Positions 174 to 64,000 of a stretch of DNA of 64,000 bases are shown here, piece by piece. Source of the stretch: Siphonodentalium dalli (lineage: Eukaryota > Mollusca > Scaphopoda > Gadilida > Siphonodentaliidae); contig CP136062.1 in the NCBI GenBank assembly GCA_032622095.1, positions 224,516,578-224,580,577 on the forward strand, given 5' to 3'. The position numbers and the translations under genes are program-made. Under the pieces are notes generated by a model. The model had not been told where the DNA came from and searched no databases. It was given only the letters and a program-made list of their open reading frames with translations. Every line of letters begins with the position of its first letter. Within the stretch, counting starts at the first letter, position 1.

Positions 174-450
174 ATGGCATGATACATGTGTGAGTATAAT
201 ACACAAGCTTCGTACATCTCACATGAGCATATGGCATGATACATGTGTGAGTATAATACACAATCTTTGTACATCTCATGTGAGAATATGGCATGATACA
301 TGTGTGAGTATAATACACAAGCTTTGTACATCTCATGTGAGTATATGGTGTGGATACATGTGTGAGTATAATACACAAGCTTCATACATCTCACGTGAGT
401 ATATGGTGTGGATACACGCATGAGTATAATACACAAGCTTCATGTCTCGC
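174..450 (+). repeat. 57 bp tandem array, short allele
   Basis: About five units of ~57 bp, each with the core GTGAGTATAATACACAAGCT followed by a TACATCTCACATGAG-like stretch. The period is divisible by three, so open frames run through it on both strands; these are not genes. The matching array in copy 2 (51125-52270) has about twenty units. Confidence 0.9.
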
Positions 451-558
451 CGCTGATGCTCTTGTTTGTGATACTATCGTACTCTCGATTTGATTTACAA
501 AGTGTAGTATGGTGCCAAGATACAAAGTGGATTTTATCCCAACCTATCTCAATTTATT

Positions 559-1537
559 TAAAGGCCCACTTAATTTCTGAATGCCCAGATCACATCATAT
601 ACAACATATATTCCATATTTTATACCGTTTGGAAGAGGATCCAAAAATATATATATTTCACCAGGATACAGAACAGCTGAGGCCAAGTAGTGTCCACCAA
701 GTGATAGAGATTCTAATAGTGTCCACCAAGTGATAGAGATTCTAATAGTGTCCACCAAGTGATAAGAGATTCTAAGATTCACCCCCTAATAGTGTCCACC
801 AAGTGATAGAGATTCTAATAGTGTCCACCAAGTGATAAGAGATTCTAAGATTCACCCCCTAATAGTGTCCACCAAGTGATAGAGATTCTAATAGTGTCCA
901 CCAAGTGATAGAGATTCTAATAGTGTCCACCAAGTGATAGAGATTCTAATAGTGTCCACCAAGTGATAGAGATTCAAATAGTGTCCACCAAGTGATAAGA
1001 GATTCTAAGATTCACCCCCTAATAGTGTCCACCAAGTGATAGAGATTCTAATAGTGTCCACCAAGTGATAAGAGATTCTAAGATTAACCCCCTAATAGTG
1101 TCCACCAAGTGATAGAGATTCTAATAGTGTCCACCAAGTGATAGAGATTCTAATAGTGTCCACCAAGTGATAGAGATTCTAATAGTGTCCACCAAGTGAG
1201 AGAGATTCTAATAGTGTCCACCAAGTGATATAGATTCTCAGATTCACCCAAAGACTTCCCCTGTTATTAACCGTAGAATACATCATAATTCACAACAAAG
1301 AGATAGAGTTATTTCCCTTCCATTGAGAATAATAAACTGGCTGTGCAGACAGATCGAAATTAATCACAGAACACACGTCGGTACCTTGACAAAAACAACA
1401 TATTGAAAGTTTATTCGACCGGATAAGTTGATAATACAATGTTTGGAAGCTTCCTCTTTCAAATGATAAAAATATAGATTATGTTGTATATTTTGTGATT
1501 ATGGGATCTGGAGATTCGAAAATTAAGTGGGCCTTTA
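559..1537 (+). mobile_element. TAAAGGCCC terminal-inverted-repeat element
   Basis: Left end reads TAAAGGCCCACTTAATTTC and the right end is its reverse complement, GAAAATTAAGTGGGCCTTTA, with matching inner bases (GAATGCCCAGATC against GATCTGGAGATTC). There is no coding capacity, so it is a non-autonomous DNA element or MITE. It encloses the 29 bp tandem array. Relatives are at 52380-53361 and, with nested insertions, 30108-32690. The target duplication is not clear. Confidence 0.75.
685..1240 (+). repeat. 29/44 bp minisatellite
   Basis: About 17 units of AGTGTCCACCAAGTGATAGA plus GATTCTAAT (29 bp). Some units carry an extra AAGATTCACCCCCT-type segment that makes them ~44 bp. Copy 2 keeps only a few units at 52507-52610, so the array length differs strongly between the two segments. 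Confidence 0.93.
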
Positions 1538-1734
1538 GTCGAACATAACCCAAACTCAAAGTTTACCTTGACTTAATTGCAGTGATTGAAGTTTGACTGT
1601 TTCTAAACTTCATCTAATATCATTCATGTTTGTTGTAAATTCAATTGTCATCTCAAAATACCAATATTTGGTTTAAATTTAAAGTTTAAAATCATCGCAA
1701 AACATTAATGTTTGATTTAACTGTTCCATGTCGG

Positions 1735-2010
1735 GAGCTGCACTGGTGCAGCATTACAGATCCTGTGCAAGTGCATTCTCTTATGTATGCGAGTTTCCCA
1801 TAGGGAGTCTCGCATATATAAGAGAATGCACTGGCTTACAAGGTCATGGTAAATATTGCTAGGCCATTGCATTCTCTTATACCTGTATATGCAAGGCTCC
1901 ATATTGGAGATATATAGAGAATGCATTCGCACAGGGTTTTCTCAAAATTTCAAAGAAGCTCCAGACATATTGCTGAATTCATGTTTTAGATTAAACGTAA
2001 TCCCATACCT
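1735..2010 (+). mobile_element. Copy-1-only insertion with two degenerate hairpins
   Basis: Absent from the matching place in copy 2 (about 53550-53560). It holds two imperfect palindromes (about 1765-1832 and 1864-1930) related to the GCATTCTCTTATATATGCGAG hairpins found in the TTAA elements further right, flanked by CCTGTGCAA and CGCACAGGG like the others. The ends are too worn for a target duplication to be named. Confidence 0.6.
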
Positions 2011-2170
2011 TCATGTTTGTTGTAAATTTAAAATACTCATGTTTTTTTGGTGTATTTATACCCCATCCAAAACTATTTGTGACAATTATAATAATTTGGC
2101 TGATGCGCCCGACTTCGTCTTGGCTATTTAGGGATTTCTTTGTGATCGCATATCTGGGCAGAATATATTG

Positions 2171-2337
2171 TTCGATCGGTCCAGAAACAGCCTATATGAG
2201 CATATATGAGTGAGGTCAAGGTCAAGGACATGGTCGCATGTGAAATTGGACCCGCCCATATTATTCCTGGGATCATGACTCAGAGGCTGTACCGATATCA
2301 TAAGTTGAACTTATTTAATGCTTCACCAGCGCAGCTC
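2171..2337 (+). repeat. Module A, second copy
   Basis: Near-identical to 1-173 and 53666-53833. Followed by CCCGTCATGAAGGGGTTCAT, as in the copy 2 segment. The piece 2338-2596 after it is shared with copy 2 and holds a small direct repeat of GTGGGTAATATCGGACCTGC; no gene is visible. Confidence 0.85.
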
Positions 2338-2596
2338 CCGTCATGAAGGGGTTCATTCACAAGTCATTCATTTGTGGGTAATATCGGACCTGCATTCATT
2401 CGTGGGTAATATCGGACCTGCATTCATAATTTATTTGTTTTATGTGATTTTGACTTGCTGTGATATTTTTATTAGAGATATTCTGTTATTTATACTGTGA
2501 TATTGTTTAAAGGGACTAATGCCTTTGAAGTGGGGTCATGCAAAATATCATAAAAGTCTGAAACAATTAACATCAACAAGTACATCCAAGCCTTGA

Positions 2597-3020
2597 TATA
2601 GTGTGTCTGTCATTTCCAGAATGAGGTCCCCAGAGGGTGAAATTATTGACGTTATCCTGCACGGTGGGCTAGCATCACCAAATTCACCCTCTGAGAACAT
2701 CATTCTGCTTAGACCTCAACTGTATGGGAGACCTAGGATCAGTTTGAAGTCCCCCAGTTGAAGCTGGTGATGTTCACCCATTAGTAACCTCAATGATGCA
2801 TTTTATCTTCTGCAAATTAGGGGATATAGAAACTGAGCAGAAAGGAAAAAGTAACAAAATACAACGTAAATTTGGGACTATAGATACTTCCCAGAAGATG
2901 AGGCCTAAGCAGAATGAGATCCCCATAGGGTGAGTTTGGTGATGCTAGCCCACTGTGCGTGATAGCATAATTAAATTCACCCTCTGGGGACCTCATTCTG
3001 CAAATGACAGACACACTATA
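2597..3020 (+). mobile_element. GAATGAGG inverted-repeat element (MITE)
   Basis: Starts TATAGTGTGTCTGTCATTTC and ends with the inverted form, AAATGACAGACACACTATA. Each end continues into a ~95 bp subterminal palindrome (CAGAATGAGGTCCCCAGAGG with its complement). No coding capacity. The family is abundant here: 36272-36435 (fragment), 42860-43165, 44876-45255, 46378-46475 (fragment), 54078-54502, 54581-54828. Confidence 0.85.
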
Positions 3021-3126
3021 TCCAGTCTTGAGTTCATGACTAAATAGATTGACTTTGTTCTTATTTTCATTAATAACTCTCCGATAATGATATTTTGTTA
3101 TGTAAACATTAGTCTTAGAGTGGAAT

Positions 3127-3607
3127 AAGTGATATCACTAACTCGCGGTGAATCCGCCATGAATCCGCCATTTTGGTCTCCGAAGGTCAAAGTTAAGAAG
3201 TAGCATCTATTTTTAGCATATGGCTCCAGTCTGGGAATTCCCAAAATAAAATGGCAAAAGTTCGTTTCACAATCGCATGGGCGACAACTTCATGAACCAA
3301 ATTAAACAATCACCCTGGTTACATACAATATATGTAGGTTTCGCGCAGTAGATGGATTGAGTGTATCACGTATATGCTTTTTGCGTGTTTTTTTTCGCAA
3401 ATACTCGCTATTTATCAGTAAATTAACTGAAATTATGTCGTCAAATGTTGATAAAAATGCTCGCGCTGTCGATGTTTACAAAAGAATGCTACTTCTCAAC
3501 TTTGACCTTTTACCGGCTTTTACCGGTGGGTTGGATAAAAAGCTAGGAATCGGACCATATGGAACCATCGGCCATCTTGAAAATCGCGAACCAGTAATAA
3601 GGCTTAT
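3127..3607 (+). other. 481 bp piece present in copy 1 only
   Basis: In copy 2 the flanks are joined directly (GTGGAAT next to TACTGATAACAGTCC, about 54873-54890). The piece contains two CCGCCAT motifs (YY1-like, about 3157-3172) and most of the open frame at 3435-3659. Because copy 2 keeps the last codons of that frame, a deletion in copy 2 is more likely than an insertion in copy 1. Confidence 0.7.
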
Positions 3608-3659
3608 TACTGATAAAAGTCCAATAAGATACCAAAGTTTAAAGGTACTCAACCCGTAA
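3435..3659 (+). CDS. Unrecognised small ORF, possible first exon
   Basis: An ATG at 3435 opens a frame whose protein starts MSSNVDKNARAVDVYKRMLL and contains GIGPYGTIGHLENREPVIRL. It reads like real protein: mixed composition, no repeat. I do not recognise the family. YY1-like CCGCCAT motifs lie ~270 bp upstream, as in many housekeeping promoters. The last codons (KVLNP, stop) come from the TTAA element inserted at 3639-3642. In the empty allele in copy 2 the frame would end a few codons after SPIRYQSL. Copy 2 lacks all but the last ~13 codons. It could be a small gene, an exon, or a gene remnant. Confidence 0.3.
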   Translation: MSSNVDKNARAVDVYKRMLLLNFDLLPAFTGGLDKKLGIGPYGTIGHLENREPVIRLITDKSPIRYQSLKVLNP

Positions 3660-4122
3660 AGAGGGTCCCCATCTCAACAGATTCCAACAACAACAATCCG
3701 ATCAGAGGGTCCTATATTACTATTTCTTTGGCTTTGGGGGTAAAAAATATTTGATTCGAGTCGAGGAACCCATCAAACAAAGCTCAGAGTTATTAGATAT
3801 TGATTTTTGAAAATTCTTATGTTCTCGAGATGAGTACCAATAACTGCCGTCAATTTGGTAACCTGCTCGAGATTTTACGCCAAAATTCTATTCAAACAGA
3901 CAAGGATGGATAACTCTATAATCAAGTGGGTAATAATAACGAATTTTTGATTGTCTTCTGGGCCAGAAAGAATTCCCGATAATGAAAAATAATAGATTTC
4001 TAAAATCGATATCTAACAAATCTGAGCTTTGATGGGTGACTTCCTCGACTCGAATCAAATATTTTTGACCCCCGAAGCCATTGAAATAGTAATTGAGAGG
4101 AGTTTTATCGGGTTGAGTACCT
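3643..4122 (+). mobile_element. TTAA-flanked fold-back element (AGGTACTC ends)
   Basis: Flanked by TTAA at 3639-3642 and 4123-4126. The ends AGGTACTCAACCCG and CGGGTTGAGTACCT are inverted, and the inverted similarity extends ~150 bp inward (ATTTGATTCGAGTCGAGGAA with its complement). Copy 2 has the empty site, a single TTAA at 54909-54912, which proves the TTAA duplication. TTAA targeting is typical of piggyBac-type transposition. No transposase is present. A relative lies at 28506-28889. Confidence 0.9.
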
Positions 4123-4126
4123 TTAA

Positions 4127-5116
4127 TCAAAACGTGAGGTAATCTATACTAATAAAACTCAATTTTGTTTGATTGTTTGTTTGACCAAATGCGGAGAGCA
4201 TTATTAGATAGGTCCCATTCACCTCAGGTGTCTTAAAATGGCACTAATAATTAGTTTATATTTACATGTATTTTGGCTTGAGGCGACCAAACAGTTGGAT
4301 CATCAGAGCTGAATTTTTGTACAGATGGGTAATTTGACCCGGGAATCTTATTAGATGTGTCCCGTTGACTTCAGATGTCTTAAAATGGCACTAATAATTA
4401 ATTTAACTAAACAATTATTGATATACCCAAAATGGTTGCAATCTGGTCAGTGAAAATTTAAACAGGGATAAAATTGACCCATAGAGTGTCATGAGGTAGA
4501 TGTCGTTGACCTCGGATGACTTAAATTGGCAAACATGAGCATGAGTGTTCTTATCAGCTCGGAAGATATGTAGGAAAAGATTAAAATATTTTAACTTACT
4601 ACACGATTAGCGATGCTTTTTGACAAATCACTGTAACAGTTTTGTTTAAATTTTAAAAATAAAGTTTATCTATTCTCTGTAATAGTGGTGATGTTTTTAC
4701 AGCCTCACCCAGATGGCATAATACACTACGGAGATTCGTCTGCTCCAGTCTATGTGGGGCTCTCTGTGGGTTTCATTTACCCACTGCAAATGCATTGGGT
4801 CCCTTTAACTGCTAATCTGTTATATCTATTATTATGACAATATAGCCTCATATCTGAAAGTTAGCCACTTTTTCAATTGTGCCAGATTTTTCGATAAAAA
4901 AATTAAGGGGTTTTCACCCTGAGCTTTGTCAGTTCTCAGTAGGTGAAAAGTTTAGATGGACCTTCACAAAAAACTTCTTTATTGTTAAGCTAGTACAACA
5001 CATGAAGGAATCTGCTATATGAAGATCACATCTTAGCATATTATATAACAATAAAAATGTCAAAAAGATGACTGGAAATGAATAAATGCCATAAAAAGTA
5101 CATGATCTATTATAAC
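4127..5116 (+). other. Shared spacer with degenerate ~145 bp repeats
   Basis: Matches 54913-57500 apart from insertions there. 4190-4520 has three worn direct repeats built on GTCTTAAAATGGCACTAATA. TTAGCGAT at 4607-4614 is the empty site of the hAT-like element found in copy 2. No gene is visible. Confidence 0.6.
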
Positions 5117-5336
5117 TACAGTAAGGCCCAAAGTATATGACCCTTTAACCATAGCAGAATTATGGGAAATTTTTCAGGATTTAGTCGGAAATATGGCTTG
5201 TTGCCATTCATTGGAAAACTCCCCCCAAGAGCTTTCCGATGAATGGCAGTAAGCCATATTTCCGACTAAATCCTGAAAAATTACCCATAATTCTGCTGTG
5301 GTTAAGGAGTCGATTATTTAGGACGTCACTGTATAG
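5117..5336 (+). mobile_element. Palindromic element (GGATTTAGTCGG)
   Basis: A nearly complete hairpin: CAGGATTTAGTCGGAAATAT on the left arm and its complement on the right arm, meeting at GAAAACTCCCCCCAAGAGCT. Outer ends are CTACAGTAAGGCCC and the related GACGTCACTGTATAG. Relatives are at 57501-57703 and, tandemly repeated, 40731-41575. Confidence 0.8.
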
Positions 5337-5519
5337 TGTATTTTATGCCAAGTGATGTGATGATCTTGTTTAAAATAATCAGAGCGAGGCTTGCAAAATT
5401 TTATATATATTAAATGAATTTAAATGATTGTGTGTTATATTTTTATATTGTAATCTAAACAATAGAATAAACGTTTTCAAAAATATCTTGTCCTTCAGTT
5501 CTGACAGCTTGGGGTCTGG

Positions 5520-5665
5520 CAGGGTAGGGCTATATTTCATTTCATACCTGTATTTATTTTCGACGATATACAAGTATGTTTGTTATATTCGTATTTGTAT
5601 TGTAAAGAAAGTGGCTGAGATACTTAGGCAGACGGACTCAAAAATCAACATGTTCAGATAATACT
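5520..5665 (+). repeat. Displaced copy of 9040-9203
   Basis: GGCAGGGTAGGGCTATATTT through AACATGTTCAGATAATA matches 9042-9203 and 61252-61410. In copy 2 the corresponding place (57873-58300) holds a different ~420 bp sequence. This looks like replacement by ectopic recombination or gene conversion within copy 1. Confidence 0.75.
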
Positions 5666-5774
5666 TTCTCTAATAAATGTGGGCAGCTGGATGTGCATAT
5701 GGATTCAAATGTGAAACTCAAAATGGCGGCTGCATGGTGGCTATAATTATACCCTCTGTTTTGCACTTGTTGGG

Positions 5775-6115
5775 GCTTCCGTCTGATGTCTGTTCATGTC
5801 ATCACTTAAACAGTAGTGCTCGGATCGCAATTTAATTTGGTATGGATGTTCACTACTGTAAGGACATTCAACAGATGATTCAATTGTCTTGTTCGGGTTT
5901 TCCATTCTAGAGTTATTCATCTCTGTTTATCTGGAAATGTTGGTTTTTTGGTCTGCCCGATGTCTGTTCAGGCCATAATGTGGAACAGTAGTGCTCGGAT
6001 CTCAATTTAATTTGGGATGGATGATCATTGCTACGAGAACATCCAATGGCGTGTGCAATTGTTTTATTTAGGTTTTTCATTCTATGGTTCTTCATCTTTG
6101 TTTATTTGAAAATGC
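5775..6115 (+). repeat. ~170 bp tandem duplication
   Basis: Two direct units, each with GATGTCTGTTCA, AGTAGTGCTCGGATC and CAATTTAATTTGG in that order. The same pair is at about 58410-58745 in copy 2. 6116-6489 is shared spacer with no visible gene. Confidence 0.8.
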
Positions 6116-6489
6116 TGATTTTTGAGTCCGTCGGGAGTATATCAGTAATAGGTTATACATGTAAGTATGCCCACACAAGGGGGTATGCACCGGACGACAG
6201 TCCATCTCTTGTTTTTAACAACTTTTGGAAAAAAATTATGGTTTCCATCCAGAGGTCACCGAAAAGACCCACATACAGTTTGCTGCATGATGATCAGATG
6301 AGGGATGTGTCCTGTAGGTACAAGTAAAGCTAAAACAGGGGATGGGTGGGGATTGTTAAAAATTAGCAGGAAGGTATGCCAGTACGTGTTGGCGGTGTAA
6401 TAACCATTTTTTTTACACCTGATTGTATTTTTATTTTAAATACTTTAAAAGCCCAAATACGACATCTGTCACATGCCTTAATTATAAAA

Positions 6490-8745
6490 TAGGGTGAACA
6501 TTTAGAGTGTCTGAGGGGCCACCCTACAACACCCTTTGTTTAACCTAAATCAGTCAAGGAACCAGGAAATGGCATAGGTGCCCTATTTTAACCCCTCTGG
6601 ACAGTGGCCATTATTTATCAGGGTAGGGTGAATATTTAAAGTGTCTTAGAGGCCTGACATAAATCAGACATAAATGGCATGGGTGCCCTATTTGAACCCC
6701 TCTGGTCGGTGGCCATTTTTGATCAGGCGGGCTGAATATTTAGAGTGTCTTGGGGCCACCCTACTACAGACCTAAATTGGTCAAGGGGGATAGAAATGGC
6801 ATGGGTGCCCTATTTAAACCCCCCTCTGGATGGTGGCCATTTTGGATCGGAGTGTGATGAATATTTAGAGTGTCTTGGGGGCCACCCTGCAACACCATTT
6901 GTTTGACCTAAGTTGGTCAATAGACCAATAAATTGCATGGGTACCCAATTTTAACCCCTCAACTGGACGGTGGCCATTTAGGATCAGGGTGGGGTGAATA
7001 TTTAGAGTGTCTTGGGGGTGGACCCTGCAAAACCATTTGACCTAAATCGTCAAGAGACCAATAAATTGCATGGGTGCCCTATTTGAACCCCTCAACTGGA
7101 TGGTGGCCATTTGTGATCAGGGTGGGATCTGTGGAATGAATATTTAGAGTGTCTTAAAGTCACAATGTAACACCCTTTGTTTGTTAGCCAAGAAATGGGA
7201 TGGGTGCCGTGTTTGAACCCATCTGGATGGCTGCCATTTTGGATCGAGGTTGGGTATGTGTGCATGTGTGAGTGTCTTGGGGCCACCCTACAGCACTATC
7301 TGCTTTACCTAAATCGAGAAATGGTATGGGTGCCCTATTTTGAACCCATCTGGATGGCAGCCATTTTGGATTGGGGTGGGGTCAATATTTAGAGTGTCTT
7401 GTGGTGGGCACCCTACAACTTGGGGGGGGGGGGCTCCCTACAACACCATTTGTTTGACCTAAATCGGGAAATGGTATGAGTGCCCTATTTGAACCCATCT
7501 GGACAGTGGCCATTTTTGGATCGATTTCACCCTACAGCACCCTTTGTTTTATCTAAATTTGTTAAGGGGCCGATAAATGGCATGGGTGCCCTATTAGAAC
7601 CCCTCGACTGGACCGTGGCCATTTGTGATCAGAGTGGGGTGTGTGGAATGAATATTTCGAGTGTCTTGAAGCCACCATGTGACACCCTTTGTTTGACCTA
7701 AATCAGTTATGTAGCCAAGAAATGGGATGGGTGCCATGTTTGAACCCATCTTGATGCCCCTCCCCCCTCTTCAACACTCTGCTTTACCTAAATCGGCCAA
7801 GGGACCGAGAAATGGCATGGGTGCCCCATTTGAACCCAATCTGGACGGCGGCCATTTTGGTTTGGGGTGGGGTGAATATTTAGAGTGTCTGGGGCACACT
7901 ACAACACCCTTTGTTTGACCTAAATCGGGAAATGGTATGGGTGCCCTATTTGAACCCATCTGAAGAGTGGCCATTTTGAATATTTAGAGTGTCTTAGGTG
8001 AGCGGCTACCCTGCAACACCATTTGTTTGACCTAAATCGGTCAAGGGGCCAAGAAATGGCATGGGCCCCCTTACCCTATTTGTACCCCTCTGGACGGCGG
8101 CCATTTTGGATCGGGTGTGGTGAATATTTAGATTGTCTTGGTTCGCATCCTACAACACCCTTTGTTTTATCTAAATTTGTCAAGGGGCCGATAAATTGCA
8201 TGGGTACCCTATTTTAACCCCTCGACTGGATGGTGGCCATTTGTGATCAGGGTGGGGTGTATGGAATGAATATTTAGAGTGTCTTGAAGCCACCATACAA
8301 CACCCTTTGTTTGACCTAAATCGGTTATGTATCCAGGAAATGGGATGGGTGCCCTGTTTGAACCCATCTGGATGGTCGCCATTTTGGATCGAGGTGGGGT
8401 GTGTGGAGTGAATATTTAGAGTGTATTAAGGCCACCATACAGCACCCTTTGTTTTACAAATTTACCTATATCGGTCATGTAGCCAAGAAATGGGATGGGT
8501 GCCCATTTTGGATCAGGGTGGGGTGTGTGATGTGAATATTTCAGTGTCGTTGGGCCAACACCCTCTCAGTGCTTGACCTAAATCGGTCAAGGGGCCAAGA
8601 AATTGCATGGATGCCCTATTTGAACCCCTCTGGATGGCTGCCATTTTGGATCGGGTGGGTGAATGTTTCGAGTGTCTTGGTGGCCACCCTACGGCACCCT
8701 TTTTTTACCTAAATCGGTCAAGGGCCGGGAAATGGCAATTATTTC
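6490..8745 (+). repeat. ~130 bp degenerate satellite, copy 1
   Basis: About 17 units of roughly 130 bp. Common order within a unit: GAATATTTAGAGTGTCTTGG, CCACCCTACAACACCCTTTG, TTTGACCTAAATCGGTCAAG, AAATGGCATGGGTGCCCTAT, GGTGGCCATTTTGGATC. Units vary in length (115-160 bp) and sequence, so the array is old. Copy 2 (59110-60945) lacks about three units. Short open frames inside are not genes. Confidence 0.93.
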
Positions 8746-8865
8746 ACTCATAAATATCATGTTGTCCCCATCATGTCGTGTATATCGACGTGTTGGTAAC
8801 AGGTTGACCTTTGCGAATGTACATCAAATGGAATATTCGATCCTGATGGCTATATGGCGATGAAC

Positions 8866-8978
8866 ACAGGTACCTGGAACACAATGGCCCCACTCCAAAA
8901 GGTATATAACATAGAGTAAGAGAGAGTAACAGAGTTATATACTGTTGGGAATGGGGTCATTTTATTCCAGGTACCTGT
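8866..8978 (+). repeat. 113 bp inverted repeat
   Basis: ACAGGTACCTGGAACACAAT at the left is mirrored by the complement of ATTTTATTCCAGGTACCTGT at the right, with a short purine-rich middle. The same structure is at 61079-61191. Probably a small fold-back element. Confidence 0.75.
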
Positions 8979-9235
8979 GATCGAGCCCGCGTCAGTAAAC
9001 CGATGAAACGATAAATATCCCATGGCAGGAACACAGACTGGCAGGGTAGGGCTATATTTCATTTCATACCTGTATTTATTTTCGACGATATACATTTGAA
9101 GTATGTTTGTTAAATTGTTATATTCGTATTTGTATTGTAAAGAAAGTGGCTGAGATACTTTAATAGGCAGACGGACTAAAAAATCAACATGTTCGGATAA
9201 TACCCCCCCCCCCGGTGTGCAATGTCCTCTTATGC

Positions 9236-9413
9236 ATTGCCAGACCCTAGATATGACTGAATTCCGTCTGACACAACCACGCCATACTCGTATGAGCGAT
9301 CCACGGTGTGGGTCCTCTTGTGCACGATCAGACTCCAGATATGACTGAATTCCGTCTGACACAACCACGCCATACTCGAATGGGCGATCCACGGTGTGGG
9401 TCCTCTTATGCAT
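9236..9413 (+). repeat. 89 bp tandem duplication, two units
   Basis: Two units built on TATGACTGAATTCCGTCTGA and CGATCCACGGTGTGGGTCC. Copy 2 has one unit only (about 61445-61535), so this is a copy-number difference between the segments. Confidence 0.88.
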
Positions 9414-9609
9414 GATGTCATAATTTTATTACTGAAGCCCCTTTAATCGTGCACCACAATTACACCCAACATTAAATTAGCACCCTAATTACATCTGTTA
9501 TTATGTCAATCACTTTAATCTGATTACGTTTCAAGCTGCATTCCTGTTATGTCTGTATATGTAATGTGTCTGTGCAGTAGCCAATGCTGGCTTTAGGCGC
9601 ACTGAGATG

Positions 9610-10340
9610 AGGTATGTGATGTTTTTCTTCCAAAACACTGCCCGGACAAAAGTACCCGTCGAAATCCAGCCGGTTTTACCCGATTTGACATCGAATTGAT
9701 CATTTTTAAGGTCAAGGTCAGGTCGGGGTCACGATTTGACCCGTCCAAAACACTCAGTGGACAAAAGGAACCATACGTATCAAATTTCGTCGAAATCCCA
9801 TAAAAATTCGCGACTCGACCTTGAATTGACCCGATTTACACTGCCCGGACACTAGTACCCGACAAAAGTACCCGTCGAAATCCATTCGGTTTTACCCGAT
9901 TTGACCTCGAATTGATCATTTTGAAGCTCAAGGTCAGGTTTTGACCCGTCGAAAACACTCAGTGGACAAAGGTAACCCCACGTATCAAATTTCGTCGAAA
10001 TCCCATCAAAATTCGCGATTTGACCTTGAATTGACCCGATTTCAAGGTCACGTCGCACGGGCAAACGAATAGGCTTACGACACTCCTCATACGAAAGTAT
10101 CCCTAGACACTAATTTTCATGGAAATCCCGTGATACACGGGCGTTTGACCTTGAAATGACCAGATTTCAAGGTCAAGGTCACGTCACACGGGCAAATTAA
10201 CAGGCCCATGCCACTCCACGGCCAAAAGTACCCCCACGTACCAAGTTTAATCGAAATCGGCTCGGCCGTTTTCGAGTCCATCGCGAACACACAGACAGAC
10301 AGACACACACACACCCTCACACACCCCCCACCCTTCCTCA
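9610..10340 (+). repeat. GGTCA-rich interspersed element ending in a CAGACAGACA tract
   Basis: Repeated ~150 bp sub-blocks with AAATCCCATCAAAATTCGCG, TGACCTTGAATTGACCCGAT and AAAACACTCAGTGGACAAA. It ends with CGGCCGTTTTCGAGTCCATC next to (CAGA)n/(CA)n, a tail seen in many invertebrate repeats. It contains many TCAAGGTCA/TGACCTTGA motifs. It lies ~0.5-1.2 kb upstream of HEATR3. Matched at 61740-62530. Confidence 0.8.
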
Positions 10341-10433
10341 CACACGCACTGATCTTCCAAAATATATAATAGATATCTATATTTTTATATCTATATTATA
10401 TTCATTAATGTCACACTCTGTATTGTTCTTTTG

Positions 10434-10550
10434 TATATGTGCTTTTGCTCACATATCTGCTTGTTAAGCATATATATTAGCCATGCATTCCGGCCGGGGC
10501 GAGATGTCTTCGGCCGAGTCGTCTCATGTATTCCGGCCCGAGTCGTCCCG
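10434..10550 (+). other. 117 bp insertion in copy 1 upstream of HEATR3
   Basis: Copy 2 joins TTCTTTTG directly to TTTCCCTTAAGACAG. The extra piece is GC-richer, with a repeated CCGGCC/GAGTCGTC motif (ATTCCGGCCGGGGCGAG, ATTCCGGCCCGAGTCGTC). Confidence 0.75.
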
Positions 10551-10699
10551 TTTCCCTTAAGACAGTTCTGATTAAAATCATGCTCAGCTGGACGATCCTT
10601 GAAATCACACGTTTCAGCAAGCTATGCCACAGAGGTTATAGGTCGAGTAGTCCAGAATGCAGAACTGCCCTCATTTTTATGGAGTTTGTGTGTGAATCT

Positions 10700-10831
10700 C
10701 TATCGGTACCGGTACGGTACGAAAAATTATAGTACGAAAATTACCACAACAAATATGGCCGCACCCATATGACAGTTCGACACGCGTTTTCTGTCCAGAG
10801 TTTTGTACATTTGAACTGTTATTTGTGCAAG
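10700..10831 (+). promoter_or_regulatory. Putative HEATR3 proximal promoter and 5' leader, copy 1
   Basis: The 130 bp before the start codon are almost unchanged between the two copies. They hold an ATATGGCCGCACCC motif (YY1-like, ~75 bp before the ATG). If transcribed, the ATG within it would open a six-codon upstream frame ending at 10771. A TACCGGTACGGTACGAAAA repeat precedes it and differs slightly in copy 2. The transcription start cannot be placed. Confidence 0.4.
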
Positions 10832-10990: not shown

Positions 10991-11039
10991 GTAACATGTA
11001 GTTCCAGGGAAACCCTAAAGATTTACACTCTTTTGGGTT

Positions 11040-50400: not shown

Positions 50401-50404
50401 TTAA

Positions 50405-50912: not shown

Positions 50913-51124
50913 TTAAGGAGCATTACTACATGTATGTGTACTGGGGCAAAATTTGCAATCACAAGGGCGTCATATAGCCCACTGGCGAACAGCTAGAAAT
51001 TTCAGTTGCAAAAACTATTCTCATCTTCGCTTTTGTTTCGAAAATCAAGAACATTGTAAGTCTGCAATTACATTTCAAGAATGCATTGACAAACATATAT
51101 CCGATTAATCAAACAATACTTTGT

Positions 51125-52270: not shown

Positions 52271-52379
52271 CCGCTGATGCTCTTGTTTGTGATACTATCG
52301 TACTCTCGATTTGATTTACAAAGTGTAGTATGGTGCCAAGATACAAAGTGGATTTTATCCCAACCTATCTCAATTTATT

Positions 52380-53361: not shown

Positions 53362-53665
53362 GTCGAACATAACCCAAACTCAAAGTTTACCTTGACTTAA
53401 TTGCAGTGATTGAAGTTTGACTGTTTCTAAACTTCATCTAATATCATTCATGTTTGTTGTAAATTCAATAGTCATCTCAAAATACCAATATTTGGTTTAA
53501 ATTTAAAGTTTAAAACCATCGCAAAACATTAATGTTTGATTTAACTTTTCCATGTCCCCATTCATAAATATTTGTGACAATTATAATAATTTGGCTGATG
53601 TGCCCGACTTCGTTTTGGCTATTTAGGGATTTCTTTGTGATCGCATATCTGGGCAGAATATATTG

Positions 53666-53833
53666 TTCGATCGGTCCAGAAACAAGCCTATATGAGCGTA
53701 TATGAGTGAGGTCAAGGTCAAGGACATGGTGGCATGTGAAATTGGACCCGCCCATATTTTTCCTGGGATCATGACTCAGAGGCTGTACCGATATCATAAG
53801 TTGAACTTATTTAATGCTCCACCAGCGCAGCTC
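53666..53833 (+). repeat. Module A, third copy
   Basis: As 1-173 and 2171-2337. 53834-54077 after it matches 2338-2596, apart from an extra ~15 bp (ATCACATTTGGACG). Confidence 0.85.
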
Positions 53834-54077
53834 CCGTCATCAAAGGGTTCATCACATTTGGACGTTCACAAGTCATTCATTCGTGGGTAATATCGGACCT
53901 GCATTCATAATTCATTTGCTTTATGTTATTTTGACTTGCTGTGATATTTTTATTAGAGATATTCTGTTATTCATACTGTGATATTGTTTAAAGGGACTAA
54001 TGCCTTTGAAGTGGGGTCATGCGAAATATCATAAAAGTCTGAAACAATTACCATCAACAAGTACATCCAAGCATTGA

Positions 54078-54502
54078 TATAGTGTGTCTGTCATTTCCAG
54101 AATGAGGTGGCCAGAGGGTGAATTTATTGACGTTATCCTGCACGGTGGGCGAGCATCACCAAATTAACCCTCTAAGAACATCATTCTGCTTAGGCCTCAA
54201 CTGCTATGGGAGACCTAGGATCAGTTTGAAGTCCCCCAGTTGAAGTTGGTGATGTTCACCCATTAGTAACCTCGATTATGCAATTTATCTTTTGCAAATT
54301 AGGGGAAATAGAAACTGAACAGAAGGGAAAAAGTAACTGAATACAATGTTAATTTGAGACTATAGATACTTTCCAGAAGATGAGGCCCAAGCAGAATGAG
54401 ATCCACATACAGTGAATTTGGTGATGCTAGCCCACTGTGCGGGGTAACATTACTAAATTCACCCTCTGGGGACCTCATTCTACAAATGACAGAAACACTA
54501 TA
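54078..54502 (+). mobile_element. GAATGAGG element, copy 2 of 2597-3020
   Basis: Same ends and inner sequence as 2597-3020 with scattered changes. Confidence 0.85.
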
Positions 54503-54580
54503 TCCAGACTTGAGTTCTTAACTAAATAGATTGACGTTCTTATTTTCATTAATAACTCTCCGATAATGATATTTTGTGTG

Positions 54581-54828
54581 CAAGCCTTGAAATAGTGCCT
54601 GTCATTTGCAGAATGAGGTCCCCAGAGGGTGAATTTAGTTATGCTACCCCGCATAGCGGGCTAGCATCACCAAATTCACCCTCTGGGAACCTCATTCTGC
54701 TGAGTTGTAAGCAGAATGAGGTCCCCAGAGGGTGAATTTGGTGATGCTAGCCCACTATGCGGGGGTAGCATCACTAAATTCGCACTCTGGGGACATTCTG
54801 CAAATGACAGACACTATTTCAAGGCTTG
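54581..54828 (+). mobile_element. GAATGAGG element present in copy 2 only
   Basis: CAAGCCTTGAAATAGTGCCT at the left and CACTATTTCAAGGCTTG at the right. Two back-to-back palindromes of ~95 bp. Not in copy 1 at the matching place (about 3100), so it is a recent insertion or a loss. Confidence 0.8.
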
Positions 54829-55036
54829 TTTGTGTGTCAAAACCATTGTGATGTACACATTAGCCTTAGAGTGGAATTACTGATAACAGTCCAATAAGAT
54901 ACCAAAGTTTAATCAAAACGTGAGGTAATATCTATGCTAATAAAACTCAATATTGTTTGTTTGTTTGACTAAATGCGGAGAGCATTATTAGATAGGTCCC
55001 ATTCACCTCAGCTGTCTTAAAATGGCACTAGTAATT

Positions 55037-55741
55037 GTCCTCCGTAAAATTTATTTTCGGGGGACTATTGTAATCAGCTCCGTCCGTCATCCGTCCGGAG
55101 TTCTAACTCCAGTAATGATAATCCGATTTGATTGAAACTTGGTATGTAGGTGTCTCAACCAAGCACACAGGTGCTCTGCAATTCTGGGTTTGATCCGATG
55201 TTTATGGAGTTCTTTCCCTTTTTTCAACTTTTTTTTAACTTAGAAAATTTCTCACTTTTTCGGTTTCCGGATGATATCTCAAGTTTGGATCGTTTAATTG
55301 CAAATACCGTTTTAGAAAATTCAATTTTTCTTGTTTTTTCTATGGTTTCCGGATGATAACTCAAGTTTGGATTGTTTAATTGGAATTCTGTTTTTTTTTG
55401 TGGGTCGTTCATATCAAAATACAGGTCAAGTTCGAATTTGAGTTTGATCCAATGATTTTTCGACTTGGAATTTTGTTTTTTATAAATATTCTGTATGAGG
55501 GTACCTTCATGGTGTAATCAACTCCTCCTACAGTTTTGATCGTAGATATTTGAAACTTCAGAGTATTGTTACCCACATATTGCAGATGTGCAACATGTAT
55601 ATAGATGACGGAATTTTTTTTTTTTTACGGAATTATTAACCCTTTCGACTTAGAACATTTCAACATTTTTTTTAATTTCTTTAACAAAGCGGCCATCGAC
55701 TTGCCACGTTGTCGGGGGACACTGTGGTCGGACGACCTTTT
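55037..55741 (+). mobile_element. CCGTCCGGAG element present in copy 2 only
   Basis: Inserted in GTAATT|AGTTTATAT relative to copy 1 (~4249). It starts GTCCTCCGTAAAATTTATTT and ends GTCGGACGACCTTT. It contains CTCCGTCCGTCATCCGTCCG and direct repeats of TTTCCGGATGATA and CAAGTTTGGAT. Non-coding. Confidence 0.75.
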
Positions 55742-56105
55742 ATTAGTTTATATATACATGTATTTTGGCTTGAGGCAACCAAACAGTTGGATCATCAGAG
55801 CTGAAATGTTTACATATGGGTAATTTGACCCGGGGAATCTTATTAGATGTGTCCCGTTGACCTCAGATGTCTTAAAATGGCACTAATAATTAATTTAACT
55901 AAACAATTATTGATATACCCAAAATGGTTGCAATCTGGTCAGTGAAAATTTAAACAGGGATAAATTGACCCATAGAGTGTCATAAGGTAGATGCCGTTGA
56001 CCTCGGATGACTCAAATGGGCAAACATGAGCATGAGTGTTCTTATCAGCTCGGAAGATATGTAGGAAAAGATTAAAATATTTTAACTTACTACACGATTA
56101 GCGAT

Positions 56106-56909
56106 CAGTGTTCACACTGGCCCAAAATGTTCTTGAGCCACCACCTTAGCCACTTGTGAATGTTTTGAGCCACTTTTCATTTACTTGAGCCACATTTTTC
56201 AACCCATATATTTTGGAGCCACTTTGATTTAAACATATTCAAAGAACAACACAAGCACATTAACTCTATTATTTATTCTAATATAATATAACAGGTTTTG
56301 GAAGGTAAAACAACAACAATATAATCAACATATTAATAATCAAACATTGAAAATTATGCGAGATTTTACATCTGCCCATTTATTAAATGCTTTACCAAAA
56401 TTAAAGTCTAACATTGGAGGGCCTTCAATTGCAATTTTCATTAATAAGTTTGAATGTGGAAAAAAAAATCTGTTTTGCCGTTTATTTTTTATTAAATGTC
56501 GGTACGAGAAGGCCCTCTCACATTCCACAATCAACACGGGTATACAATATAGTGTTTATGTAAAGTCTGATATAGGATATGTGTCCTTTCTTTGTTTCAC
56601 TAATGTTTGGCGATGTGAAAGCAATACAATGAATGTGTGTTTTTATCGAGTAGAAGTAGGAATCCCATTCATGGTACGCGATACAATTACAACCAGACGC
56701 CGTGGCATAAGCCGAGAATCAATTAGCGAGTGCTTTTATTCAGACTGTCACCATAATTGTTAAACTTAATCTGTCCTACGGCAGTTAATTTAAGAGCCAC
56801 ACACCCAAATTCTTTGAGCCACTTTCTTTAGCCACTAGCACATTTTGTTGAGCCATTTTTGTTTTTCTTTCGCAATTTGCGACATTTGCTCACGGCAGCG
56901 TGAACACTG
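56106..56909 (+). mobile_element. hAT-like non-autonomous element present in copy 2 only
   Basis: Flanked by TTAGCGAT at 56098-56105 and 56910-56917. Copy 1 has a single TTAGCGAT at 4607-4614, the empty site. The ends CAGTGTTCACACTG and CGTGAACACTG are inverted, and an 8 bp duplication with CAGTG ends is the hAT signature. Both ends carry repeated TTGAGCCACTTT-type motifs. Inside is a 138-codon frame (56347-56763), unrecognised and without a transposase signature. Confidence 0.9.
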
Positions 56910-57500
56910 TTAGCGATGCTTTTTGACAAATCACTGTAACAGTTTTGTTTAAATTTTAAAAATAAAGTTTATCTATTCTCTGTAATAGTGGTGATGTTTT
57001 TACAGACATTTACCCACTGTGAGCCTCACACAGATGGCATCATACACTACGGAGATTCGTCTGCTCCAGTCTATGTGGGGCTCTCTGTGGGTTACATTTA
57101 CCCACTGCAAATGCATGGGGTCCCTTTAACTGCTAATCTGTGATATTTATTATTATGACAATATAGCCTCATATCTGAAAGTTAGCCACTTTTTCAATTG
57201 TGCCAGAATTTTCGATAAAAAAATTAAGGGGTTTCCACCCTGAGCTTTGTCAGTTCTCAGTAGGTGAAAAGTTTAGATGGATCTTCACAAAAAACTTCTT
57301 TATTGTTAAGCTAGTACACCACATGAAGGAATCGGCTATATGAAGATCACATCTTAGCATATTATATAACAATAAAAATGTCAAAGAAATTACTTTAGCA
57401 ATAGTTTTAGAAGGGAACTTTTTGGGAAGAGCTTTCTCAGCAAGGATACAATTAGAGTGGAAATGAATAACTGCCATAAAATGTACATGATCTATTATAA

Positions 57501-57703
57501 CTACAGTAATGCCCAAAGTATATGACCATTTAACCATAGCAGAATTATGGGAAATGTTTCAGGATTTAGTCGGAAATATGGCTTGTTGGCTCATCGAGAG
57601 CTTTCCGATGAATGGCAGTAAGCTATATTTCCGACTAAATCCTGAAAAATTACCCATAATTCTGCTGTGGTTAAGGAGTCGATTATTTAGGACGTCACTG
57701 TAT
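57501..57703 (+). mobile_element. Palindromic element (GGATTTAGTCGG), copy 2
   Basis: Matches 5117-5336, with a ~12 bp shorter centre. Confidence 0.8.
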
Positions 57704-57872
57704 AGTGTATTTTATGCCAAGTGATGTGATGATCTTGTTTAAAATAATCAGAGCGAGGCTTGCAAAATTTTATATATATTAAATGAATTTAAATGATTGT
57801 GTGTTATATTTTTATATTGTAATCTAAACAATAGAATAAACGTTTTCAAAAATATCTTGTCCTTCAGTTATG

Positions 57873-58300
57873 GCAGTTTGGGGTCATGCCGGGTAATAAA
57901 TTGAAAAAGTGGGATTGGGTACAGTTAAGCACTTAATTGAATGAATTGTATTGTGCAGATAAAACTGTTTTCATTTCAAACATTTCTCCAATGTTGGGCT
58001 GCATGGTGTGCCAACGGATTCAAATGTGATATCCAAGATGGCCACTGATGGCCATGTTTTTTTTAAGAAATTCGGAAAAAAATTGATAGCTCACATCTGG
58101 AGGTCACCCCGAAGATCCATGTTAAGTGTAGTATGAATCTAATGAAAATCTGCTGCCTGCAGTATGTGACGAAGGATTTGGTCATGCAAAGAGTAAAATG
58201 CAAGATGTCTGCTGGCAGCCATTTTTTTTTCAAAAATCGTTCAAAATAACTTTCATCTAGAGGTGAACCTTAACATGCCAGTAAAGTAAAAAAATATTTC
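57873..58300 (+). other. ~430 bp present in copy 2 only
   Basis: Replaces the displaced 5520-5665 piece of copy 1. Contains AAGATGGCCACTGATGGCC and related pieces; no gene. Confidence 0.6.
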
Positions 58301-58409
58301 TCTAATAAATGTGGGCAGCTGGATGTGCATATGGATTCAAATGTGAATCTCAAAATGGCGGCTGGTGGCTATAATTATACCCTCTGTTTTGCACTTGTTG
58401 GGGCTTCCG

Positions 58410-58745
58410 TCTGATGTCTGTTCATGTCATCACTTAAACAGTAGTGCTCGGATCGCAATTTAATTTGGTATGGATGTTCATTACTGTAAGGACATTCAAC
58501 AGATGATTCAATTGTTTCGTTCGGGTTTTCCATTCTATAGTTATTCATCTCTGTTTATCTGGAAATGTTGGCTTTTTGGTCCGCCCGATGTCTGTTCAGG
58601 CCATAATTTGGCAGTAGTGTGCTCGGATCTCAATTTAATTTGGTATGGATGATTATTGCTACGAGAACATTCAATGGCGTGTGCAATTGTTTTATTTAGG
58701 TTTTTCATTCTATGGTTCTTCATCTTTGTTTATTTGAAAATGCTG
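58410..58745 (+). repeat. ~170 bp tandem duplication, copy 2
   Basis: As 5775-6115. Confidence 0.8.
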
Positions 58746-59109
58746 ATTTTTGGGTCCGTCGGGAGTATATCAGTAATAGGTTATACATGTAGGTATGCCC
58801 ATTGCCCACACAAGGGGGTATGCACCGGACGACAGTCCATCTCTTGTTTTTAACAACTTTTGGAAAAAATTATGGTTTCCATCCAGAGGTCACCCAAAAG
58901 ACCCACATACAGTTTGCTGCATGATGATCAGATGAGGGATGTGTCCTGTAGGTACAAGTAGAGCTAAAACAGGGGATGTGTGGGGATTGTTAAAAATTAG
59001 CAGGAAGGTATGCCAGTGTTGGCGGTGTAATAACCATTTTTTTTACACCTGATTGTATTTTTATTTTAAATACTTTAAAAGCCCAAATACGACATCTGTC
59101 ACATGCCTT

Positions 59110-60945
59110 AATTATAAAATAGGGTGAACATTTAGAGTGTCTGAGGGGCCACCCTACAACACCCTTTGTTTAACCTAAATCAGTCAAGGAACCAGGAAAT
59201 GGCATAGGTGCCCTATTTTAACCCCTCTGGACAGTGGCCATTATTTATCGGGGTAGGGTGAATATTTAAAGTGTCTTAGAGGCCTGACATAAATCAGACA
59301 TAAATGGCATGGGTGCCCTATTTGAACCCCTCTAGTCGGTGGTCATTTTTGATCAGGCGGGCTGAATATTTAGAGTGTCTTGGGGCCCACCCTACTACAG
59401 ACGTAAATTGGTCAAGGGGGATAGAAATGGCATGGGTGCCCTATTTAACCCCCCCCCTCTGGATGGTGGCCATTTTGGATCGGAGTGTGGTGAATATTTA
59501 GAGTGTCTTGGGGGCCACCCTGCAACACCATTTGTTTGACCTAAGTTGCATGGGTACCCAATTTTAACCCCTCAACTGGACGGTGGCCATTTAGGATCAG
59601 GGTGGGGTGAATATTTAGAGTGTCTTGGGGTGGACCCTGCAAAACCATTTGACCAATAAATTGCATGGGTGCCCTATTTGAACCCCTCAACTGGATGGTG
59701 GCCATTTGTGATCAGGCTGGGATCTGTGGAATGAATATTTAGAGTGTCTTAAAGTCACCATGTAACACCCTTTGTTTGTTAGCCAAGAAATGGGATGGGA
59801 TGGGTGCCGTGTTTGAACCCATCTGGATGGCTGCCATTTTGGATCGAGGTTGGGTATGTGTGCATGTGTGAGGTGAATATTTGAGTGTCTTGGGGCCACC
59901 CTACAGCACTATCTGCTTTACCTAAATCGAGAAATGGTATGGGTGCCCTATTTTGAACCCATCTGGATGGCAGCCATTTTGGATTGGGGTGGGGTCAATA
60001 TTTAGAGTGTCTTGGGTGGGCACCCTACAACTTGGGGGGGGGGGGGGCTCCCTACAACACCCTTTGTTTGACCTAAATTGGGAAATGGTATGAGTGCCCT
60101 ATTTGAACCCATCTGGACAGTGGCCATTTTGGATCGATTTTGTGTGAATATTTAGAGTGTCTTGTGTGCCACCCTACAACACCCTTTGTTTTATCTAAAT
60201 TTGTTAAGGGGCCGATAAATGGCATGGGTGCCCTATTTGAACCCCTCGACTGGACCGTGGCCATTTGTGATCAGAGTGGGGTGTGTGGAATGAATATTTC
60301 GAGTGTCTTGAAGCCACCATTTGACACCCTTTGTTTGACCTAAATCAGTTATGTAGCCAAGAAATGGGATGTGTGCCCTGTTTGAACCCATCTTGATGCC
60401 CCCCCCTCTTCAACACTCTGCTTTACCTAAATCGGCCAAGGGACCGAGAAATGGCATGGGTGCCCCATTTGAACCCATCTGGACGGCGGCCATTTTGGTT
60501 TGGAGTGGGGTGAATATTTAGAGTGTCTGGGGCACCCTACAATTTTTTAACACCCTTTGTTTGACCTAAATCGGGAAATGGTATGGGTGCCCTATTTTAA
60601 CCCATCTGAAGAGTGGCCATTTTTAATATTTAGAGTGTCTTAGGTGAGCGGCTACCCTGCAACACCATTTGTTTTACAAATTTACCTATATCGGTCATGT
60701 AGACAAGAAATGGGATGGGTGCCCATTTTGGATCAGGGTGCATGGGGTGTGTGATGTGAATATTCCAGTGTCGTTGGGCCAACACCCTCTCAGTGCTTGA
60801 CTTAAATCGGTCAAGGGGCCAAGAAATTGCATGGATGCCCTATTTGAACCCCTCTGGATGGCTGCCATTTTGGATCGGGTGGGTGAATGTTTCGAGTGTC
60901 TTGGTGGCCACCCTACGGCACCCTTTTTTGACCTAAATCGGGGAA
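59110..60945 (+). repeat. ~130 bp degenerate satellite, copy 2
   Basis: About 14 units. Compared with copy 1, the part matching 8010-8450 is missing and several short indels are present. Confidence 0.92.
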
Positions 60946-61078
60946 TGGCAATTATTTCACTCATAAATATCATGTTGTCCCCATCATGTCGTGTATATCG
61001 ACGTGTTGGTAACAGGTTGACCTTTGCGAATGTACATCAAATGGAATATTCGATCCTGATGGCTATATGGCGATGAAC

Positions 61079-61191
61079 ACAGGTACCTGGAACACAATGG
61101 CCCCACTCCAAAAGGTATATAACATAGAGTAAGAGAGAGTAACAGAGTTATATAATGTTGGGAATGGGGTCATTTTATTCCAGGTACCTGT
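61079..61191 (+). repeat. 113 bp inverted repeat, copy 2
   Basis: As 8866-8978. Confidence 0.75.
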
Positions 61192-61739
61192 GATCGAGCC
61201 CGCGTCAGTAAACCGATGAAACGATAAATATCCCATGGCAGGAAGACAGACTGGCAGGGTAGGGCTATATTTCATTTCATACCTGTATTTATTTTCGACG
61301 ATATACAAGTATGTTTGTTAAATTGTTATATTCGTATTTGTATTGTAAAGAAAGTGGCTGAGATAATTTAATAGGCAGACGGACTAAAAAAGCAACATGT
61401 TCAGATAATACCCCCCCCCCCCGGTGTGCAATGTCCTCTTATGCATTGCCAGACCCTAGATATGACTGAATTCCGTCTGACACAACCACGCCATACTCGA
61501 ATGGGCGATCCACGGTGTGGGTCCTCTTGTGCATGATGTCATAATTTTATTACTGAAGCCCCTTTAATCGTGCACCACAATTACACCCAACATTAAATTA
61601 GCACCCTAATTACATCTGTTATTATGTCAATCACTTTAATCTGATTACGTTTCAAGCTGCATTCCTGTTATGTCTGTATATGTAATGTGTCTGTGCGGTA
61701 GCCAATGCTGGCTTTAGGCGCACTGAAATGAGGTATGTG

Positions 61740-62530
61740 ATGTTTTTCTTCCAAAACACTGCCCGGACAAAAGTACCCGTCGAAATCCAGCCGGTTTTAC
61801 CCGATTTGACATCGAATTGATCATTTTGAAGGTCAAGGTCAGGTCGGGGTCACGATTTGACCCGTCCAAAACACTCAGTGGACAAAAGTAACCCTACGTA
61901 TCAAATTTCGTCGAAATCCCATAAAAATTCGCGACTCGACCTTGAATTGACCCGATTTACACTGCCCGGACAAAAGTACCCGACAAAAGTACCCGTCGAA
62001 ATCCATTCGGTTTTACCCGATTTGACCTCGAATTGATCATTTTGAAGCTCAAGGTCAGGTTTTGACCCGTCGAAAACACTCAGTGGACAAAGGTAACCCC
62101 ACGTATCAAATTTCGTCGAAATCCCATCAAAATTCGCGATTTGACCTTGAATTGACCCGATTTCAAGGTCACGTCGCACGGGCAAACGAATAGGCTTACG
62201 ACACTCCTCATACGAAAGTATCCCTAGACACTAATTTTCATGCCGATTTCAAGGTCACGTCGCACGGGCAAACGAATAGGCTTACGACACTCCTCATACG
62301 AAAGTATCCCTAGACACTAATTTTCATGGAAATCCCGTGATACTCGGGCGTTTGACCTTGAAATGACCAGATTTCAAGGTCACGTCACACGGGCAAATTA
62401 ACAGGCCCATGCCACTCCACGGCCGAAAGTACCCCCACGTACCAAGTTTAATCGAAATCGGCTCGGCCGTTTTCGAGTCCATCGCGAACACACAGACAGA
62501 CAGACACACACACACCCTCACACACCCCCA
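61740..62530 (+). repeat. GGTCA-rich element, copy 2, with an 86 bp duplication
   Basis: As 9610-10340, but the block with ACGGGCAAACGAATAGGCTT and ACACTCCTCATACGAAAGTA occurs twice in tandem (about 62158-62329). Copy 1 has it once. Confidence 0.82.
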
Positions 62531-62913
62531 CCCTTCCTCACACACGCACTGATCTTCCAAAATATATAATAGATATCTATATTTTTATATCTATATTATA
62601 TTCATTAATGTCACACTCTGTATTGTTCTTTTGTTTCCCTTAAGACAGTTCTGATTAAAATCATGCTCGGCTGGACGATCCTTGAAATCACACGTTTCAG
62701 CAAGCTATGCCACAGAGGTTATAGGTCGAGTAGTCCAGAATGCAGAACTGCCCTCATTTTTATGGAGTTTGTGTGTGAATCTCTATCGGTACCGTACGGT
62801 ACGAAAAATTATAGTACGAAAATTACCACAACAAATATGGCCGCACCCATATGACAGTTCGACACGCGTTTTCTGTCCAGAGTTTTGTACATTTGAACTG
62901 TTATTTGTGCAAG

Positions 62914-63072
62914 ATGGGGAAATCGAAACAGAACCGTTTTAAGTCAAACAAAACATCACCAACTGGACTCCCTAGTGTGAAAGAATTTGAACAAGAACTC
63001 GAGAATTTGGACGAGATGTCTTTAAAAAATGACAGTCACAATGATTTTGTGGTTTCAAATGTGATTGACAAG
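62914..63072 (+). CDS. HEATR3: HEATR3 (symportin) exon 1, copy 2
   Basis: Same 159 coding bases as 10832-10990, same ATG context and GTAACA donor. The first difference after it is in the intron (63125). Exon 2 would lie beyond the right edge. If this is the other haplotype, one HEATR3 gene exists; if a real duplication, this copy needs its own exon 2. The 5' leader differs from copy 1 by loss of GGTACC at ~62790 and of the 117 bp insertion further upstream. Confidence 0.87.
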
Positions 63073-63121
63073 GTAACATGTAGTTCCAGGGAAACCCTAA
63101 AGATTTACACTCTTTTGGGTT

Positions 63122-64000
63122 TCAAATTGGGTCTGTACAAATCCTATCTGAAACTCATACCTTTTCTATTTACAGGCGATAAAAGGACTCCTGGTGCCAG
63201 ATTCTGCTTGGTTCTCTTCTTATGGTGACAATAAATAAAGACAAGATTCCACCAAAAGTTCCGAAATCCGCACCTTCATGAGCTAAAATAAAGACATTTG
63301 TCATTTGTGCAAAAAAATTACTAACATACTTTTTAATCGCATTTTTGCTTCGAAAATAAACTATTTAGCCGGAATAAGAAAAAGTGTAGCTGAGTTGCTT
63401 TATTATCCAATTCTACTAAATGTTGTATAATACTTTTAACAAGTTGTAGAAATATATTGGTGATATGAAGTAATTGTTTTATTCAGAGAAGCATAATCAG
63501 TTCTCACATTTGTCGTGGTGTCAAAAAATATCATCTATAGGCCTACTCTGGCCCCGACTCGGGAAATTGTGTAGCCTACTTGGAAGATATATGATACAAT
63601 TGCATCACTATTCGTATTTACTTTATTATTTCAATAAACTATAAGTCAACAAAGTCATAGTTATAACAATGTTAACTTCATTTAAACAATACAAATGATT
63701 CTCCTATTACAATAAATTGTCGCCTACATCCAATAAAACGGACGACCAGAGGATGGTGCTTGCAGCTGTTATTGCAGGGGAAAAACCAGGACAACGCAAA
63801 ATATAACAAAACGGCTTCCACGAAGTCTGCTGGTCCCACGCCCAGATAAAGGACGAGGATAGTTAAAATGAACACTGAATAGACACCGAATGAAAAACCC
63901 TATTTAGTGATACTTTAGTGATAATATAGCCATATTAATGTTGATAAATAGGCCTAATTAACATGCAAGTTTTGAGAAATTTTTACCATACAGTTGACAG
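63122..64000 (+). mobile_element. Left arm and centre of the intronic fold-back, copy 2 (cut by the window)
   Basis: Matches 11040-11920. The right arm is outside the window. Confidence 0.78.

Follow-up and report, generated by a model that had tools for sequence, protein, structure and literature searches.

The window analysed here is a stretch of 64,000 nucleotides from the scaphopod mollusc Siphonodentalium dalli (assembly GCA_032622095.1, 2.23 Gb, 9 contigs), C2:224516578-224580577, where C2 stands for CP136062.1. It holds the beginning of a gene assigned to HEATR3 twice, once on each side of an assembly gap. In all likelihood this is a false haplotypic duplication, in which both alleles of one locus were set in a row on the scaffold, and the apparent doubling of HEATR3 is very probably an assembly error. 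The stretch left of the gap at 33614-33713 is called contig A, that to the right of it contig B, and that behind the next gap contig C; A and C together would represent one version of the locus and B the other. The evidence consists of the collinearity of the contigs, the homology at either edge of the first gap, the presence of every tested HEATR3 piece in two copies and the finding that A ends on B close to where C begins. Positions without the prefix C2 are those of the window, in which window position p corresponds to C2 position p + 224516577; position 0 exists.

Overlap of contigs A and B at the first gap

The window was aligned with itself, first alone and then with 40 kb extra on each side. 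Within the window, a series of plus-strand collinear matches was found, from 174-760/51998-52593 (88.8%) to 10550-11918/62633-64000 (99.2%). The preliminary description of this DNA had delimited two near-identical collinear segments of ~12 kb (174-11920 and 51125-64000); the collinearity was confirmed, but the limits were too narrow. The full overlap runs from A -16981 (C2:224499596) to A 33613, a span of 50.6 kb, and corresponds to 44.5 kb of B, 33714-78175. Position 64000 is a mere window edge, and a 99.4% block continues to 66193. The homology does not start at position 174; the two units of a local tandem duplication in A meet there, which explains why the match had been seen to begin at that point. 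The matches of the tandem duplication are -1234..-601 with 174..816 (89.0%) and -728..-109 with 1096..1732 (95.3%). If the contigs are alleles, A should also carry, left of position 1, the stalk/transmembrane (TM) gene that precedes the copy in B. The stretch B 33714-52106 does have a counterpart there, A -16981..-1023, interrupted by insertions; this is a collinearity of the stretch said to hold the gene.

Chained alignment of the 50,595-bp overlap (24 blocks) gave a mismatch of 2.14%, or 755 mismatches in 35,295 ungapped columns, made up of 377 transitions and 378 transversions. A stricter chain gave 1.97% over 30,842 columns, 62% of the span in A. Inside the overlap, 46 of the 296 plus-strand high-scoring segment pairs (HSPs) were at least 400 bp long, the longest being 10,140 bp, which is far beyond chance similarity. 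Control stretches outside the overlap, about half as long as those inside, were compared on both strands (A -39999..-16982, 23 kb, against B 82000..104000, 22 kb); none of the 12 HSPs reached 400 bp and the longest was 376 bp. Probe searches of the genome, in each of which the best 40 candidates were scored, were also employed. A single 2.9-kb probe from A, just left of the overlap, had one full-length place, the other matches listed being repeats, and by this probe sequence outside the overlap occurs once.

The two versions also differ by insertions. Seven of the 23 block junctions of the chain, chosen for clean ends, were examined, and they proved to be reciprocal insertions, three in A only and four in B only, each with a direct repeat of 2-14 bases that is single in the partner (Table 1). 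The larger insertions look like mobile elements, whereas the 2-bp repeats and AAAA are too short or plain to count as proof. The ends of the 5,739-bp insertion are inverted by eye, offset by one base; an ungapped script test gave 6/30. The copies had been said to differ as alleles do, and the single-nucleotide differences (2.14%), the lengths of the 48-bp array and the seven insertions bear this out.

The gap itself had been described as exactly 100 N, and this was found. The first base of B aligns with A -16981, in a first block at 92%, and the final bases of A lie inside a 48-bp tandem array that is also held by B. The gap thus lies between the copies and the homology reaches the contig ends on both sides, as would be expected from two overlapping contig ends that were not joined. 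Whereas the boundary of a true duplication should be independent of assembly gaps, the boundary here is the gap. The tools purge_dups and purge_haplotigs are aimed at contig ends that overlap but were not joined across a scaffold gap. The present case is of this sort in that, at the first gap, both contigs are homologous right up to the N run; it differs in that three contigs are involved (A-B and B-C) and in that the outermost stretches at the second gap do not align.

Distribution of HEATR3 over three contigs

HEATR3 exon 1 had been reported in both segments, and its coding part was found to be identical over 159 bases. Exon 2, which B should carry right of 64000 if the contigs are alleles, is present there and differs at one of 58 residues. 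Neither exon contains a stop codon. Exon 2 alone, when compared with the PDB, matched helical-repeat proteins (4 chains at E up to 1), and the best two matches were designed proteins, 4rv1 (1.5e-11) and 4hxt (9.6e-7). The gene was named HEATR3 because pieces of PF25567 (TPR_SYO1), a domain of HEATR3, lie downstream on the same strand.

A genome search for PF25567 returned 10 matches, 6 of them over the cut-off. These are five pieces, each found twice, at C2:224634470-224651603 in B and at C2:224793945-224814507 in C. The exon 1 probe had two full-length places, in A and B, and 38 of the 40 matches listed were a repeat in its last 245 bases. The exon 2 probe likewise found A and B, with none in C, 38 of its 40 listed matches being short repeats. 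Every HEATR3 piece tested (exon 1, exon 2 and the five SYO1 pieces) was therefore found exactly twice among the candidates scored, with the 5' part in A, the 3' part in C and both in B. Pieces that occur twice across three contigs form the pattern of two alleles, one split around the other. Since exon 1 was found in A and B only and the SYO1 pieces in B and C, a further contig boundary was to be expected.

Tracking the collinearity of B and C leftward located this boundary, a second gap, again exactly 100 N long, at C2:224734540-224734639, 184 kb right of the first and unforeseen in the preliminary description. C starts with about 250 bases followed by a 4.4-kb high-copy element with inverted ends, and its alignment with B begins at C2:224739927 in C and 80348 in B. 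On B, A ends at 78175 and C is recognisable from 80348, with no overlap of A and C and 2.2 kb between them. That A breaks off and C restarts in the same 48-bp array was considered and rejected; the first 8 kb of C hold no match to the unit. The collinearity was followed by samples to C2:224694192 in B and C2:224852523 in C; within C, C2:224764578-224814577 and C2:224824578-224846318 were covered by the SYO1 matches only. Three stretches of B and C diverged by 2.72% (12,628 columns), 1.16% (7,382 columns) and 8.84% (1,934 columns, of which 1,221 are minisatellite, with 2.7% in the rest).

Taken as haplotypes, A and C would form one HEATR3 version, interrupted between the 48-bp array at the end of A and the 4.4-kb element near the start of C, and the 184-kb B would be the other parental version, unbroken. 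The assembler would have kept B separate because the versions differ by ~2% in bases, by many insertions and by array lengths, and the scaffolder would then have set B between A and C. The versions are thus probably alleles of one individual rather than paralogs, and their order was probably made by assembly and scaffolding. The proposal that both haplotypes lie in one scaffold and that the HEATR3 duplication is false is supported by the collinear overlap, the gap edges, exon 2 in B and the third contig.

Far end of contig B and other explanations

Several observations weigh against this explanation. The overlap in A is only 62% covered by chained matches, with a mismatch of 1.3-5.1% across 10-kb bins. 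A TAG falls within the match of a weak SYO1 piece in C, whose score of 22 bits is under the cut-off. The divergence of B and C is higher near the ends, 7.8% in the first 451 aligned columns of C and 8.8% in the last 1,934, and some matches there have an identity of 88-94%. The first 5.3 kb of C, mostly the high-copy element, and B 78176-80347 do not align. Furthermore, the second gap had been forecast at 224.754 Mb from the SYO1 offset, which was wrong by 20 kb. A further point concerns the last 40 kb of B, C2:224694.2k-224734.5k, for which no long counterpart was found in C up to C2:224886577; the 11 matches there measure just 150-377 bp, at 83-88%. Four probe searches covering ~17 kb of these 40 kb found no close copy beyond high-copy elements among the best 40 of 10,519-13,086 candidates each. 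Instead, C2:224694192-224734539 in B resembles the left flank of A, C2:224451456-224492408, in inverted order. Taken from end to end, then, B is no simple allele, and the possibility that all of it is an allele of C was rejected with regard to these 40 kb. Homology at the second gap stops short of the contig ends, with the first 5.3 kb of C and the last 40 kb of B unaligned with the partner.

The inverted match between the end of B and the left flank of A consists of 23 HSPs with 7,913 columns and 7.05% mismatch, covering 20% of the span; some of the 23 are dispersed repeats. A control chain in direct order gave 4 HSPs with 998 columns and 6.41% mismatch. Since the control is similarly divergent, the inverted match is carried by its order and extent and not by its divergence. 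The switch point lies at a ~64-bp minisatellite, which was found in A (inverted, C2:224489.4k), B (C2:224694.4k-224698.8k) and C (C2:224852.4k-224853.7k). The end of B may represent an old inverted duplication whose right arm is absent from C; we rate this slightly above a misjoin in B or an inversion polymorphism, given that divergence is just about 2% in the interior and over three times that in the inverted match.

An alternative, which we regard as unlikely, is that B represents the HEATR3 region in an inverted, or in some other way rearranged, haplotype, with a segment of roughly 155-180 kb per haplotype. The breakpoints would then lie in the inverted copies of the ~64-bp minisatellite at 224489.4k in A and 224852.4k in C (C2 positions), the distal 40 kb of B would be the allele of the left flank of A, and B would have been kept separate for that reason. 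However, the flanks diverge by 7.05%, compared with about 2% elsewhere, and the coverage of the match is low, both of which favour the old inverted duplication with no right arm in C. The overlap of A and B is independent of how the last 40 kb of B are read.

It was also considered that A and then B represent a real and recent tandem segmental duplication of about 50 kb, the gap being its unassembled junction. The copies do stand head to tail on one scaffold, and a mismatch of 2.1% would by itself be compatible with a young duplication. However, the gap would have to fall on the junction by chance, the second 100-N gap would be left unexplained, and so would C, a third collinear stretch that starts near the point where A stops and holds the pieces that A lacks. 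We therefore consider a tandem duplication very improbable. Hardly credible is the view that B, as a duplicated copy of 184 kb, was really inserted here and split the resident HEATR3 after exon 2: it is literally the assembled order A-B-C and agrees with the lack of a long counterpart of the last 40 kb of B in C, but both of its junctions are 100-N gaps and the collinear overlap of B with both neighbours would need a coincidence.

Features of the region and consequences for the HEATR3 count

The features of the two versions are collected in Table 1.

Table 1. Coordinates of contigs, HEATR3 exons, repeats and insertions, in window positions
Feature	Position	Strand	Remark
Contig A, part in window	1..33613	+	last 50.6 kb (-16981 to 33613) are the first version of the overlap
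Local tandem duplication in A, second unit	174..2337	+	first unit about -1234..173
A-only insertion, 115 bp	10435..10549	+	2-bp direct repeat GT
HEATR3 exon 1, coding part, A copy	10832..10990	+	53 codons, ATG at 10832, donor AAG/GTAACA after 10990
A-only insertion, 5,739 bp	14118..19856	+	4-bp direct repeat TTGT, single in B
HEATR3 exon 2 (helical-repeat type), A copy	28896..29069	+	between AG and GT
A-only insertion, 2,123 bp (CAGGGT...ACCCTG)	30527..32649	+	3-bp direct repeat TAA, single in B
48-bp tandem array where A breaks off	32708..33613	+	same array in B 434 bp, 77742-78175
Gap between A and B	33614..33713	.	exactly 100 N; single N run in window
Contig B, part in window	33714..64000	+	extends to C2:224734539; 184,249 bp in total
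B-only insertion, 192 bp	35724..35915	+	2-bp direct repeat CC
B-only insertion, 705 bp	55037..55741	+	3-bp direct repeat ATT
B-only insertion, 798 bp	56106..56903	+	14-bp direct repeat (12/14 bases alike), single in A
HEATR3 exon 1, coding part, B copy	62914..63072	+	159/159 bases identical to A copy
HEATR3 exon 2, B copy	75195-75368		outside window; 1 difference in 58 residues from A
B-only insertion, 870 bp	76243-77112		outside window; direct repeat AAAA

Some further elements were observed. The 4.4-kb element in C (C2:224734887-224739273) has ~190-bp inverted ends (96%) and long matches at 95-98% in at least 26 other places, on all nine contigs; it may perhaps have been active recently. An array with a 48-bp period shows a large difference in length, at least 6,975 bp in C (C2:224757603-224764577) versus 1.36 kb in B (100085-101447). 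An open reading frame of 175 amino acids at 46546-47073, with the cysteine/histidine motif CKLCGKEPESLEHFILKC, lies in a stretch of B of ~1.5 kb that is absent from A and sits between direct repeats of ~300 bp. The motif is reminiscent of the tail of reverse transcriptases of the non-LTR (long terminal repeat) type. At 21509-21870, units of ~20 bp with a palindromic core, TCGTGGCCACGA, are densely packed in both orientations, and the array is strongly self-complementary.

False haplotypic duplication is an already known kind of error. In the passages of Ko et al. 2022 (PMC9516828) drawn on here, a false heterotype duplication is the placement of both alleles as paralogs in a haploid assembly. 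Its signs are coverage at the haploid level, assembly gaps that separate the copies and linked reads that are discordant, with k-mers also used; for three species, 4 to 16% of the sequence of earlier assemblies is given as false duplication. The examples given there include NPNT and NPNT-like, which are adjacent with an assembly gap, and ZBTB11, which is duplicated beside itself. A duplication of this kind at a gap is the subject of the legend of Fig. 9; purge_dups and purge_haplotigs are named (PMC9516828). The HEATR3 region resembles the cases described in those passages in having two alleles in a haploid assembly, a gap between them and genes split or doubled. Unlike them, it has one haplotig enclosed by two pieces of the other version, each set off from it by a gap, the far end of B differs structurally, and the class was assigned here from the assembly sequence.

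The same signature, homology that runs exactly to the edge of a 100-N gap and exons that occur twice across three contigs, can be checked at other gaps of this assembly. If left uncorrected, the HEATR3 region would count as a gene duplication, in which a complete gene is accompanied by a 5' fragment and a 3' fragment, and the chromosome would gain about 140-185 kb of extra sequence. Removal of one version would leave one HEATR3 gene.

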